The notes under the pieces were generated by a model. It was not told the DNA's origin, made no database searches, and saw nothing but the letters and a program-made list of their open reading frames with translations. A stretch of 64,000 nucleotides of DNA from Enteractinococcus coprophilus. GTDB taxonomy: Bacteria > Actinomycetota > Actinomycetes > Actinomycetales > Micrococcaceae. The stretch lies in assembly GCF_006716305.1 (NCBI RefSeq), contig NZ_VFOU01000002.1:434001-498000 (forward strand), in the 5' to 3' direction. The position numbers and the translations under genes were made by a program. Below, piece after piece: positions 28,519-37,213 of the stretch. How positions within the stretch are numbered: position 1 is the first letter of the stretch; every line of letters begins with the position of its first letter.

Positions 28519-29361
28519 CTACTTCACAATAAGGTCTTTGCGAGCGTCCGCAATAGCTGACTTCAAATCGGCCACTTTTGGCCCGTGCTGAAGAATCCCC
28601 CGAGACGAGTTGACTAGCACGTTCTTCCAGGCCTGGCCAAAACCCTGACGGATATCAGCAGCCTGTGCGCCTTGTGCGCCATACCCGGGCGCAAGGATTG
28701 GAGCGTTTGCCCTAACCAAGTCGATGTTTAGCGATTTAGCGTCATCGGTGACTGTCGCACCGACGACTAAACCGACGGACCCCAGCGGCTCGGCTGTCGC
28801 ATTGTCGCGTGCTGCCGCATCCACAATTCGCTTGGCTACGGAGTCACCCTCGGGCCCAAGATGTTGAACAGATGCCCCTTCGGGATTCGAGGTCAACGCT
28901 AGGACGAACACTCCCCTGTTATGGGATAAGGCCAAATCGATTGCCGGACGCAACGACTCATACCCCAAGTATGCGGTCAGGGTGACCGCATCCGCCACCA
29001 GCGCTGAGCCATCGGCAAGCCACGCTTGCGCGTATCCTTCCATGGTGGATCCGATATCGCCGCGCTTAGCGTCGGCAATGGTGAGGATGCTCGCCTCGCG
29101 AGCCGACTGCAACGTGTCTTCTAGTATTGCGAAGCCGGCCGAGCCGAATCGCTCATAGAGCGCGACCTGTGGTTTCAGGGCGGCAACTCCGGTGGTTTCG
29201 GCTGCGGCTTCGACAACGGTTTGGGAAAAGGTTGCTAGCCCAGCAGTGTCGTCGTTGAGACCCCAGGCGTTCAGCAAGTGAGGGTGTGGGTCAATGCCTA
29301 AACATAGAGGACCGTGATGGTCCATGGCTTGGGCGAGACGACTTCCAAAGGGCTGAAACAT
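28519..29361 (-). CDS. pyrF: Orotidine 5'-phosphate decarboxylase (type 2)
   Basis: Last step of UMP synthesis. The catalytic lysine/aspartate motif is IADAKRGDIGSTMEGYAQAWL near 96-116, and the N-terminal LCLGIDPHP belongs to the PyrF type 2 family used by actinobacteria. Length 280 residues is normal. It starts 6 nt after the carB stop and is the last gene of the pyr operon. Confidence 0.95.
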   Translation of the reverse strand: MFQPFGSRLAQAMDHHGPLCLGIDPHPHLLNAWGLNDDTAGLATFSQTVVEAAAETTGVAALKPQVALYERFGSAGFAILEDTLQSAREASILTIADAKRGDIGSTMEGYAQAWLADGSALVADAVTLTAYLGYESLRPAIDLALSHNRGVFVLALTSNPEGASVQHLGPEGDSVAKRIVDAAARDNATAEPLGSVGLVVGATVTDDAKSLNIDLVRANAPILAPGYGAQGAQAADIRQGFGQAWKNVLVNSSRGILQHGPKVADLKSAIADARKDLIVK

Positions 29362-32695: not shown

Positions 32696-33820
32696 TTAGT
32701 TTCCGGTGGCCATCAGGCTTGCGAAGGCATCGAAGACCGGGTGTGATTCGTCTACGGCAACCGCGGTATTTTCTGGGTAGTACTGCACGGTGACGACCGG
32801 TAGTGCCTCTGGGCGCAGGGCTTCAACCGATTTGTCGTTGAGGCTGTACTGGCTCACGGTGACCTCACCATAGTGAGCGTTCGGCGCGGCCGCGGTGCCC
32901 TGTGGGGCAACGACGGCATATTCGTGGTTCTGAGTGGTCATGAGGCTCTGGCCGGAGGCGACATCATAGACCGGCTGATTCGGACCGCGCTGGGCCTGGT
33001 CGAGCAGCACGGTGTCGTAACCAAGGGCCCGGGCGATAATCTGGTGGCCCAAGCCGATGCCCAACAGCGGGGTTTTGGCGTCTAACAGGGCGGTCGCCAG
33101 TTCGATTTGTACAGTGGCTTCGGCGGGATTACCGGGGCCCGAAGAAAAGACGACACCGTCGACACCGGCAGCGGTGACATCAGCCATGGTGGCACTTGCC
33201 GGCAGGACCTTGACCGTGTTGCCCCGTTCCACCAACTGGTTGATCGTGGCGCGCCGCACACCCAGGTCGATGAGTGCGACGGTGTGCTGCGGGTGGTCTG
33301 CTGCTACTTCATATGCGGTGGCGGTTGTGACTTCGGCGAGCAGCTGTTCGGTAGCGGGTTTGGACCAAGCTCGAACCTTGGCGACCAGGTCGGCATCAGG
33401 GGCGTCGGCGTCGTCGCCGGCAAAGATACCGGCGGCTACCTGGCCGGTGCCTGCGATGTGGCGGGTCAGTGCGCGCGTGTCGATGCCAGCAATCCCTACG
33501 ACTCCGGCTGCGGTCAGCTCGGTATCCAGATCACGTTCGGACTGCCAGTTGGAGCGCACGCGGGCCGGTTCGCGGATGATGACACCGGCGGGCCAGTAGG
33601 TATCCGATTCGGCGTCGGCGGCATTGACCCCGACGTTGCCAATATGGGGGAAGGTGAACACCATCAGCGTGTGAGCGTTGGCCGGATTGGTCAGACTGTG
33701 CTGATAGCCGGTCATGGTCGTGTCAAAGACCAGTTGTCCAAAGACGCTCCCGGTTGCTGCATAGGTGGTGCCGGCGTAGATGGTGCCATCTGCCAGGACG
33801 AGTTTGGCTGATGTGCTCAT
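32696..33820 (-). CDS. carA: Carbamoyl-phosphate synthase small subunit with degenerate glutaminase triad
   Basis: Normally hydrolyses glutamine and passes ammonia to CarB. The 374-residue chain is complete: N-terminal CPSase_sm_chain domain (1-140, with FGQLVFDTTMTGYQ and HIGNVGVN) and C-terminal class I glutamine amidotransferase domain (about 178-374, SSGPGNP at 226-232). The nucleophile motif GICLG reads GIGLG: Gly256 (codon GGC at 33053-33055) replaces the essential Cys. The HPE motif reads YPE: Tyr348 (TAC at 32777-32779) replaces the catalytic His; Glu350 remains. Glutaminase activity should be abolished, while the fold needed to hold CarB may persist. The start overlaps the PH-like gene by 4 bp (ATGA). 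Confidence 0.92.
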   Translation of the reverse strand: MSTSAKLVLADGTIYAGTTYAATGSVFGQLVFDTTMTGYQHSLTNPANAHTLMVFTFPHIGNVGVNAADAESDTYWPAGVIIREPARVRSNWQSERDLDTELTAAGVVGIAGIDTRALTRHIAGTGQVAAGIFAGDDADAPDADLVAKVRAWSKPATEQLLAEVTTATAYEVAADHPQHTVALIDLGVRRATINQLVERGNTVKVLPASATMADVTAAGVDGVVFSSGPGNPAEATVQIELATALLDAKTPLLGIGLGHQIIARALGYDTVLLDQAQRGPNQPVYDVASGQSLMTTQNHEYAVVAPQGTAAAPNAHYGEVTVSQYSLNDKSVEALRPEALPVVTVQYYPENTAVAVDESHPVFDAFASLMATGN

Positions 33821-34338: not shown

Positions 34339-35667
34339 TTATCGGCTGTGTTGGTACGGCGTGGTCAGCTCGGCATTAGCGACGACGCGGTGGCCGCGAT
34401 AGAACACGTCGGTCACCTGCCCAGAGAGCTCCATACCCTGATAGGGCGAGTTAGCGGACTTCGAGGCGTGGTCGGCCGGGTTCACCACAAAGGTGGGGTT
34501 TGGATCGTAGACGGAAAGATTGGCCAGTGCACCGGAAACCAGGCTGCCGGTATCAGTCAGTTGCCCCTGATCGGTGTGGCGGTAGATGCGTGCCGGATTG
34601 ACCGACATGACGCGGGCGACGCCGTGCCAATCGAGCAGGCCGGTGTCGACCATCGTGTGCTGGATAACGGGCAGTGCGGTTTCTAGACCGGTCATGCCCA
34701 TGGCTGCGACCACCCACTCGCACTGTTTTGTTTCGGCGGTATGGGGTGCATGGTCGGTGCCCACGGTGTCGATCGTGCCATCGGCTAGGCCCTCGCGAAG
34801 CGCACGGACATCGGAGTCTTTGCGCAACGGTGGGTTGACCTTGAACACCGGATCGTAGGTTTTGACGTAATCCTCGGTCAGCAGTAGGTGGTGCGGGGTG
34901 ACTTCTGCGGTGACGTTGATGCCCTGGGATTTCGCCCACCGGATCAGTTCAACCGACCCGGCGGTGGAGACGTGGCAGATGTGCACGCGGGAATCCACAT
35001 GCTGGGCCAGTAACACGTCACGGGCAATGATGGATTCTTCAGCAACGGCGGGCCAGCCGGCTAGGCCAAGTTCAGACGACAGTGCCGATTCATTCATTTG
35101 GGCGCCTTCGGTCAGGCGCGGCTCTTGAGCGTGTTGGGCGATAAATCCGTCGAAAGATTTGACGTATTCCAACGCACGGCGCATCAGCACCGGATCCCAA
35201 ACGCACATGCCATCATCGGAGAACATCGTGACATTGGCGGCTGAATCGTACATCGCTGACAACTCGGCTAGCTGTTCGCCTTTGAGTCCCACGGTCACGG
35301 CTCCAACCGGGTAGACATCGGTCCAGCCGGAGGCCCGGCCAAGCCGGTGGACTTGTTCAACCACACCGGCGGTATCGGCCACCGGATTCGAGTTGGCCAT
35401 CGCATGCACCGCGGTGAATCCGCCTTTGGCCGCAGCCCGTGTACCGGTTTCCACGGTTTCGGCGTCGTCGTTGCCGGGTTCACGCAGGTGGGTGTGAAGA
35501 TCGACCAGGCCGGGCAGGATGATCTTGCCGGTCGCATCGATCACCTCGGAGCCGTCGGTGTTGAGGTTTTGGCCGAGCTGGGCGATGGTGCCGTCGGCGG
35601 CAATAGCCATATCGGTTTGGACGCCGTCCGGGGTTGTGCCGCCGGTCATCACATAGGTATGAGTCAT
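34339..35667 (-). CDS. pyrC: Dihydroorotase
   Basis: Cyclises carbamoyl aspartate to dihydroorotate. It belongs to the amidohydrolase superfamily: the metal motif DLHTHLREPG lies near residue 55-64 (from this start), HICHVST near 230 and the catalytic GTDHAPHT near 302. About 442 residues, class I type. I chose the ATG at 35667 because AAAGG lies 7 nt upstream and MTHTYVM resembles relatives; another ATG at 35682 overlaps the pyrB stop (ATGA) and may serve coupling. Confidence 0.95.
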   Translation of the reverse strand: MTHTYVMTGGTTPDGVQTDMAIAADGTIAQLGQNLNTDGSEVIDATGKIILPGLVDLHTHLREPGNDDAETVETGTRAAAKGGFTAVHAMANSNPVADTAGVVEQVHRLGRASGWTDVYPVGAVTVGLKGEQLAELSAMYDSAANVTMFSDDGMCVWDPVLMRRALEYVKSFDGFIAQHAQEPRLTEGAQMNESALSSELGLAGWPAVAEESIIARDVLLAQHVDSRVHICHVSTAGSVELIRWAKSQGINVTAEVTPHHLLLTEDYVKTYDPVFKVNPPLRKDSDVRALREGLADGTIDTVGTDHAPHTAETKQCEWVVAAMGMTGLETALPVIQHTMVDTGLLDWHGVARVMSVNPARIYRHTDQGQLTDTGSLVSGALANLSVYDPNPTFVVNPADHASKSANSPYQGMELSGQVTDVFYRGHRVVANAELTTPYQHSR

Positions 35668-35678
35668 AATCTGGCCTT

Positions 35679-36629
35679 TCATTGCCCTGGTTGCCCTGCC
35701 AACAGCAGGTAGAGGACTGCCATGCGCACGGAGACGCCATTGGCAACTTGTTCAAGTGCGGTGTTTTGTGCCGAATCTGCTGCGGCTGCGGAAATTTCCA
35801 GGCCACGGTTCATCGGTCCCGGATGCATGATTAACGTGTCCGTGTCGGCGATCGTTTGATAGCGGTCGTTGGTCAACCCCCAGCCGCGCGTGTACTCGGC
35901 CGGCGAGGGGAAAAACGCCCCGGCCATGCGCTCCGCTTGGACGCGCAGCATCATGACGGCGTCTGGGTGTTGTGCCAAAATGCCGTCGAGATCATAGTTG
36001 ACCTCCACCGGCCAGGTGTTCACTCCCACCGGCATCAGTGTGGGCGGACCAGACAGCGTGACTTTGGCACCCAGCGTGTGTAGCAGCCAGACGTTGGAGC
36101 GTGCGACCCGGGAGTGCAAAATATCGCCCACGATCACCACATGGACCCCATTGAGGTCTTTGCCGGTGGCTTGGGTTCCGTGCAGGCGATTGCGCAGGGT
36201 GAAAGCATCCAGGAGGGCCTGGGTAGGGTGTTCGTGGGTGCCATCGCCGGCGTTAATGATAGCGGAGGACGACCAACCAAAATTGGCCAACTGTTGGGCG
36301 GCACCGGACGCCCAGTGCCGCATCACGATGGCGTCGCCACCGATGGCTTCCAGCGTTTGTACGGTGTCTTTGAGGGATTCGCCTTTGGAGACCGAGGACG
36401 TTTTGACTGCGAAATTCAACACGTCAGCCGAGAGTCGCTTGGCGGCCGCCTCAAATGAGGTGCGGGTGCGGGTGGAGTCTTCAAAGAACAGGTTCACGAC
36501 GGTCTGGCCGCGCAGAGTCGGGAGCTTTTTGATGGACCGGTCCGAGACCGTGGCCATTTCTTGAGCGGTGTCAAGGATTGCCAGTGCGTGATCGTAAGAT
36601 AGTTCTCGGGTAGCTAATAGGTGTCGCAT
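35679..36629 (-). CDS. pyrB: Aspartate carbamoyltransferase catalytic subunit
   Basis: Condenses carbamoyl phosphate and aspartate. The carbamoyl-phosphate-binding motif STRTRTSFE is at 52-60, and [16 protein letters not shown] near 128-143. At 316 residues it is full length. No pyrI regulatory subunit is present, as usual in actinobacteria. It overlaps the pyrR stop by 1 bp. Confidence 0.96.
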
Positions 36630-37213
36630 CAGTCCATCACATCCACGATTTGTACTTGGTCCGATGTGTAATAGTCTTCGTCCCCGTCGATTTCGGCCAG
36701 ATGGACCCGCACGTGTTCAGCGGATGCAGTTGGGAGATTTTTACCCACGTAGTCGGCGCGTAACGGGAGTTGACGATGCCCGCGGTCGACCAGCACGGCG
36801 AGCCGGACGGTTTGTGGCCGTCCAATAGCCGATAGCGCATCGAGCGCCGCCCGGATCGTACGTCCCGAATACAGCACGTCATCGACGAGTACGACCACCG
36901 CATCATCGACACCGGCTGAAGGAATGATAGTCGATGCAGGCACTCGTGAACCGGCACGAGCCAGATCATCTCGGTACAAGGTGATATCGAGTTGCCCGGT
37001 ACGTTCTTGAATCACGAACTCGGGATCGATCTCTGCCAGTTTGGCTGACAGTCGATTCGCCAGTGGGACACCGCGACGTGGAATGCCAAGAATGAGAAGA
37101 TTCTCAACCCCGCGGTTGCCTTCGAGGATCTCGTGGGCGATGCGAGTGAGGACCCGGTTGATATCCGATTCAGACATCACGGTGCGTGCTTTACGCACGG
37201 GTTCTTGCGCCAC
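36629..37213 (-). CDS. pyrR: Bifunctional pyr operon regulatory protein/uracil phosphoribosyltransferase PyrR
   Basis: RNA-binding regulator that represses pyr genes when UMP is plentiful and has weak uracil phosphoribosyltransferase activity. The PRPP loop [12 protein letters not shown] is at 108-119, and the basic [12 protein letters not shown] segment and SRVPAST region fit the family. Length 194 residues. GTG start with AGGAG 6 nt upstream. A PyrR-type RNA binding loop lies immediately before the ribosome site, so it probably controls its own translation and thereby the operon. Confidence 0.95.

Follow-up and report, generated by a model that had tools for sequence, protein, structure and literature searches.

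A CarA lacking the catalytic cysteine and histidine in Enteractinococcus: a probably ammonia-dependent carbamoyl-phosphate synthetase

Can a carbamoyl-phosphate synthetase (CPS) still work when its small subunit has lost the nucleophile and the catalytic histidine of the glutaminase, and from where would it take its nitrogen? This question is raised by a pyrimidine gene cluster of Enteractinococcus coprophilus, located in a stretch of 64,000 nucleotides (contig NZ_VFOU01000002.1, positions 434,001 to 498,000) that is called the window below. The cluster order is pyrR, pyrB, pyrC, a PH-like protein, carA, carB, and pyrF (Table 1). In the outgroup locus L055, a similar-looking ORF, judged by inspection, occupies the place of the PH-like protein.

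Table 1. Genes of the pyrimidine cluster and triad codons of carA, in window coordinates.
Feature	Position	Strand	Remark
pyrF-like ORF, downstream of carB	28519..29361	-	name from translation
carB, large (synthetase) subunit, 1102 aa	29368..32676	-	intact, conserved
carA, CPS small subunit, 374 aa	32696..33820	-	triad Cys and His replaced
CarA codon 350, GAA = Glu	32771..32773	-	third triad residue retained (E. coli Glu355)
CarA codon 348, TAC = Tyr	32777..32779	-	catalytic His position (E. coli His353)
CarA codon 256, GGC = Gly	33053..33055	-	nucleophile position (E. coli Cys269)
small protein, bacterial PH-like domain PF25362	33817..34326	-	between pyrC and carA
pyrC-like ORF	34339..35682	-	name from translation
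pyrB-like ORF	35679..36629	-	name from translation
pyrR-like ORF	36629..37213	-	name from translation

The initial annotation had reported that Gly and Tyr replace the catalytic Cys and His of CarA while Glu350 is kept, and its residues and coordinates proved to be exact. In the phmmer alignment with E. coli CarA (PDB 1c30_B, the structure of a C269S mutant), Gly256 falls on position 269, Tyr348 on His353, and Glu350 on Glu355, the E. coli triad being Cys269/His353/Glu355. The change of the QNHGFAV motif to QNHEYAV had also been described correctly, though the His of this motif (His299, encoded by CAC) is kept. The protein belongs to the CarA homology family, since it contains both domains (CPSase_sm_chain PF00988, 134.6 bits; class I amidotransferase PF00117, 102 bits), adjoins carB, and presents the CarA fold. 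However, it lacks the Cys-His-Glu triad of glutamine-hydrolysing CPS (CPS II), having Gly256/Tyr348/Glu350 instead. With the glutaminase nucleophile lost and the synthetase part intact, it matches by sequence what is expected of an ammonia-dependent CPS, and carA and carB are separate ORFs, not the single fused chain of CPS1 proper. The match to TIGR01368 reaches 326 bits (cut-off 307.35), and by passing the NCBI cut-off for a 'glutamine-hydrolyzing' CPS small subunit this CarA sets a trap for annotation.

No second carA that could replace it was found, PF00988 having a single match in the genome (2,879,712 bases in 6 contigs, rated 100% complete). A nucleophilic Cys relocated within the protein is ruled out because CarA of the window contains no cysteine at all; Cys-free CarA was counted in 6 of 7 genus proteins, the seventh having one Cys at residue 150. 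Lacking the nucleophile, the catalytic His, and any spare Cys, and with further conserved residues changed, CarA should not hydrolyse glutamine, and its glutaminase is almost certainly dead. Concerning the structure, an AlphaFold2 model built from 37 sequences showed a mean pLDDT of 90.7. Its closest fold is that of E. coli CarA (1cs0_B, E 1.5e-42, TM 0.91/0.90), followed by human CPS1 (TM 0.85-0.86 by model length). In the model, residue 256 lies between strand 252-255 and helix 257-265, where the nucleophile normally sits.

CarB had been described as apparently intact, and this was borne out by its match to NCBIfam NF003671 (1570 bits, residues 1-1088) and its alignment with E. coli CarB over residues 1-1077. 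Its residues C232, A251, and A314, presumably the E. coli CarB counterparts of the CPS1 gate residues Cys648, Ala667, and Ala729, are kept in 7/7 genus and 17/17 outgroup proteins. These CPS1 residues are named as the gate in a CPS1 study (PMC4655335). Taken together, CarA would keep its fold without glutaminase activity and stay as the structural partner of CarB, which would make carbamoyl phosphate from bicarbonate, two ATP, and free ammonia entering the complex from the cytosol. With a probability of about 0.86, CarAB would thus act as an ammonia-dependent CPS in the cell, and the initial reading of CarA as a structural partner only is supported by these comparisons. Because synthetases of the E. 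coli type work poorly with ammonia, this reading would require either abundant ammonia in the cell or a CarB adapted to it. One hint of the latter is CarB residue 247, four residues from the gate Ala251, which is Ala in 7/7 genus proteins and Ser in 17/17 outgroup proteins; this S247A change is a possible adaptation to free ammonia and is offered as a lead only.

The loss of the triad residues affects the entire genus. Nine genomes of this genus (Yaniella/Enteractinococcus, Micrococcaceae) were searched, among them Enteractinococcus helveticum UASWS1574 (G006), Yaniella halotolerans DSM 15476 (G005), Candidatus Yaniella excrementavium (G001), Candidatus Y. excrementigallinarum (G002), an Enteractinococcus MAG (G007), a Yaniella MAG (G008), and a Micrococcaceae MAG (G003). 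Gly256 was found, as GIGLGHQ, in 8/8 genomes covering the site and Tyr348, as QYYPE, in 9/9; CarA of G007 consists of two fragments, and only the C-terminal piece covers a site. Seven complete genus relatives show 69-87% CarA identity to the window. Outside the genus, GICFGNQ, QNHGFAV, and HPE are present in 22/22 CarA loci of family outgroups, and Cys and His are kept in the 17/17 outgroup CarAs of the carAB comparison, a set that overlaps with the 22. Among 43 named CarA rows from outside the genus, retrieved with a genus-built query and hence not a random sample, 37 present both Cys and His. Of the six exceptions, L159 and L170 read Gly/His and L162 and L163 read Ser/His; L192, with Gly/Arg, is partial and degenerate, and L184 shows the Cys but does not extend as far as the His. 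In the CarA tree the genus members group in a single clade (100/100) whose long stem measures 1.33 changes per column; the tree tool warned that long branches may attract.

To characterize the drift, carAB of 17 outgroup and 7 genus pairs were compared. The mean identity of CarA residues 1-145 is 0.80 within the genus, 0.73 within the outgroups, and 0.52 between them; for the amidotransferase domain (residues 178-374) the values are 0.73, 0.73, and 0.45, and for CarB 0.93, 0.81, and 0.76. Of the columns invariant in the outgroups (n = 17), those changed in all 7 genus members amount to 22/87 in the amidotransferase domain, 7/52 in the N-domain of CarA, and 15/628 in CarB, with two further ones in the CarA linker. 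The changed set includes C256G, H348Y, K189R, N227S, G276A, G300E/Q/A, and F301Y. The mean dN of the amidotransferase domain versus CarB is 0.197 versus 0.043 in the genus and 0.221 versus 0.149 in the outgroups. In six genus pairs, dN/dS was 0.05-0.16 for the CarA amidotransferase domain, 0.08-0.18 for the CarA N-domain, and 0.013-0.034 for CarB, where dS exceeds 1 and is near saturation for the distant pairs. Moreover, both genes have open frames in each of the 7 genus pairs. Since dN/dS is well below 1 and the frames are open, the drift, which is specific to CarA, proceeds under continuing purifying selection: CarA is relaxed yet kept. The relaxation of the CarA N-domain is not obviously predicted by the loss of the glutaminase alone and counts against the explanation. 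Residues 251-262 around the nucleophile site present 9/12 invariant columns in eight genus proteins versus 96/197 for the domain.

CarA is not the only amidotransferase changed in this genus. CarA, GuaA, PurQ, PabA, TrpG, HisH, PurF, GlmS, GltB, PyrG, and glutamine synthetase were surveyed. The genome of the window encodes five PF00117 matches (CarA, HisH, the Peptidase_C26/PuuD-like L067, GuaA, and a PabA-PabB fusion, which the PabB models match below their cut-offs), and three of them, CarA, GuaA, and PabA, are dead. In GuaA of 8/8 genus genomes, Cys is replaced by Gly (7) or Ser (1) and His by Asn (7) or Asp (1), whereas GuaA is intact in 2/2 outgroups. Identity within the genus is 69% in the amidotransferase part of GuaA and 91% in the synthetase part; the N-terminal model reaches 95 bits, below its cut-off of 172, while the C-terminal and whole-length models pass. 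PurQ presents Gly for Cys and Ser or Asn for His in the 7/7 genomes read (G008, with its locus at a contig edge, is left out of the count) and is intact in 2/2 outgroups. PabA could be read in 5/8 genus genomes, G001, G004, and G008 giving no PabA match in the PF00117 search; in an alignment with seven TrpG/PabA proteins from outgroups, all five show Gly for Cys, Asp (4) or Glu (1) for His, and Ala for Glu. On the other hand, the HisH triad of Cys, His, and Glu is intact in 8/8 genus genomes, and eight further class I matches in the genus, mostly Peptidase_C26/PuuD-like, keep Cys and HPE (GICRG in seven, GICLG in one). Judging from these residues, the losses fall on biosynthetic class I members other than HisH, and the sites of CarA, GuaA, PurQ, and PabA are lost while the synthetase partners examined (CarB and the GuaA synthetase domain) are conserved.

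As a control, one genome from each other genus sampled was searched, and three strong PF00117 matches, taken from frame length and place to be CarA (139-159 bits), GuaA (142-167 bits), and TrpG/PabA (165-197 bits), were present in 31/31. In the 8 genus genomes, the best PF00117 match has 128 bits and the GuaA matches have 41-60 bits. Regarding TrpG, no genus PF00117 match is as strong as outgroup TrpG/PabA. The weaker class I loci read, leaving aside those of G004, G005, and G006 for which no locus was retrieved, are PuuD-like or encode an intact-looking amidotransferase-fold protein. The latter is an accessory class I protein with Cys and HPE found at L075 (G002:C44) and L047 (G006:C19); L075 is split over two frames and lies beside an ORF that its translation suggests is flavin-monooxygenase-like.

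Among the remaining families, PurF keeps the catalytic Cys in 8/8 genus genomes, while its RYxTxG and HNGNL motifs have drifted in 8/8 (L138:1279-2700, L132-L135, L139, L140, and L143). GlmS above the cut-off was found in 0/8 genus genomes versus 2/2 outgroups; a deaminase run backwards could supply a bypass. Full-length GltB was likewise found in 0/8 versus 2/2. The GltB-like matches above 200 bits in the genus have frames of 382-592 aa, the one of 382 aa starting at a contig end, and in the one GltB-like locus read (L227) no amidotransferase part was seen. Glutamine synthetase family matches number 3-5 per genus genome and, like the triads kept in the further class I proteins, weigh against the ammonia explanation. 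L227 belongs to a cluster on contig C1 of G000 (about 248846-257642; L227, L129, L111, L237) with glutamine synthetase-like, class II amidotransferase-like, and GltB-like ORFs, similar neighbours being present in outgroup G041; we presume that it resembles N-methylglutamate/GMAS-type clusters. PyrG (PF06418) was found in 0/8 genus genomes and, in the family-wide search, was absent from 9/9. However, 31/395 Micrococcaceae genomes lack a PF06418 match, including some high-quality genomes of other genera; among the 20 of these 31 that are listed, 9 belong to this genus and 11 do not (g12, g17, g29, and some of g3, g4, and g15). As the three of the 11 that were read (G019, G024, and G074) have an intact CarA, the absence of PyrG was rejected as part of the genus pattern.

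The change in CarA, reported from one locus, is the visible corner of a larger genus-wide change. On balance, it is somewhat probable that the genus has abandoned glutamine as a general amide donor, free ammonia being the nitrogen source of carbamoyl phosphate, GMP, FGAM, aminodeoxychorismate, glucosamine 6-phosphate, and glutamate, while protein, HisH, and a few further users would still draw on glutamine; CarA would be the clearest fossil of this shift. The claim is held back by the intact HisH, which indicates that biosynthetic glutamine hydrolysis is not wholly gone, by the Cys kept in PurF, and by the restriction of the survey to the families named above.

Other explanations were considered for the state of CarA. 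The losses could have been selected by a glutamine-analogue antibiotic, with the same CarA mechanism and ammonia use as a consequence, so that only the cause would differ. Antibiotics of one such kind alkylate the nucleophile Cys, and it is the Cys itself that is lost in CarA, GuaA, PurQ, and PabA, all class I amidotransferases. This cause is nevertheless improbable, given that the Cys is kept in 8/8 HisH and 8/8 PurF and that His and other conserved residues, whose loss inhibitor resistance does not require, have been lost too. It is more improbable still that another glutaminase acts in trans, docking on the dead CarA and supplying CarB with ammonia. Although the conserved segments flanking the site in the genus and the intact amidotransferase-fold proteins of the genome (HisH, the PuuD-like protein, and class II members) would suit such docking, HisH and L067 are the only intact ones among the five PF00117 matches, HisH is located among other his genes, no further amidotransferase was seen among the ORFs around carA, and no reason was found for any of them to bind CarA.

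The drift of CarA could also be that of a relic, if CarAB were no longer used and carbamoyl phosphate came from carbamate kinase, arginine breakdown, or uptake. The strong constraint on CarB, with its low dN/dS in all six pairs and few changed columns, and the open frames of both genes make this a shade less probable than docking. A sequencing error had been argued against from the start, and the genus-wide fixation of Gly256 and Tyr348, in isolates and MAGs alike, refutes it; together with the open frames and the purifying selection, it leaves an error or a pseudogene with a negligible probability. An ammonia-dependent CarAB in the living cell thus remains the preferred reading.

Ammonia-tunnel glutamine amidotransferases are usually explained as an answer to low ammonia in the cell. 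An alkaline, ammonia-rich life could let free ammonia replace glutamine, and the glutaminases would then decay one by one. The likely setting would be ammonia-rich, alkaline places such as faeces or sludge. Animal faeces and soil are the main sources of Enteractinococcus, whose growth range is pH 7-11 with an optimum of 8, and a selection for high ammonia tolerance yielded one species of the genus (PMC4966478). Papers listed for Yaniella and Enteractinococcus concern broiler litter, compost, cheese, and tobacco. With its culturable members, this genus offers a natural experiment on the purpose of the glutaminase, in which the work of bacterial synthetases on free ammonia, the ammonia level of the cell, and the role left to the dead subunits become testable.

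Compared with known systems, CarAB of the window shares with that of E. coli the subunit layout, the fold of CarA, and the gate residues of CarB. The E. coli enzyme is, however, glutamine-dependent. Its C269 mutants lose the glutamine-dependent activity and keep the ammonia-dependent one, and the natural state of the window resembles theirs, going beyond it with the His and further conserved residues changed. Human CPS1 chains are likewise among the sequence and fold matches of the window's CarA. As in the window, CPS1 keeps an inactive glutaminase-like domain with the Cys replaced (human Ser294) and uses ammonia as substrate (PMC4655335). According to that study, CPS1 takes ammonia from outside, for which an alternative entry path is proposed, and the Cys replacement is the cause named for the human protein (PMC4655335). 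Unlike the window's enzyme, CPS1 is a single chain; it is activated by N-acetylglutamate. The window has two separate bacterial subunits in a pyrimidine cluster and has lost both Cys and His. CarAB of the window would therefore appear to work like CPS1 without being CPS1, CarA being assigned as such by descent and fold.

Single-domain NAD synthetases (NadE) are amidoligases reported to use free ammonia in vivo, but there glutamine use is described as gained by recruiting a glutaminase (PMC3376133), whereas that of the window is kept but dead. Blattabacterium had been expected as a precedent; the passages of PMC2768785 consulted state none and describe reliance on host glutamine. The titles and abstract beginnings listed for open-licence PMC articles showed neither a bacterial CarA devoid of glutaminase nor a loss of amidotransferases in Yaniella or Enteractinococcus.

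Outside this genus, four CarAs from Chloroflexota/Dehalococcoidia MAGs also lack the nucleophile Cys, with Gly in L159:6001-7116 and L170:889-2004 and Ser in L162:6001-7128 and L163:6001-7131. They resemble the genus in this replacement in a natural bacterial CarA and differ in keeping His and Glu in all four and in their distant tree position. Hence, the CarA nucleophile has been lost independently at least twice in bacteria. One residue of GHRGGN is deleted in all four, which speaks for a common origin of their losses, but on the tree the two Gly proteins and the two Ser proteins fall into separate clades, with rows that carry the Cys in between. These proteins could possibly belong to further ammonia-dependent synthetases. 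Finally, the CarA-like partial row from an Oscillospiraceae MAG (L192:6001-6936) presents Gly, Arg, and Asp at the triad positions and may be degenerate or have a different function.
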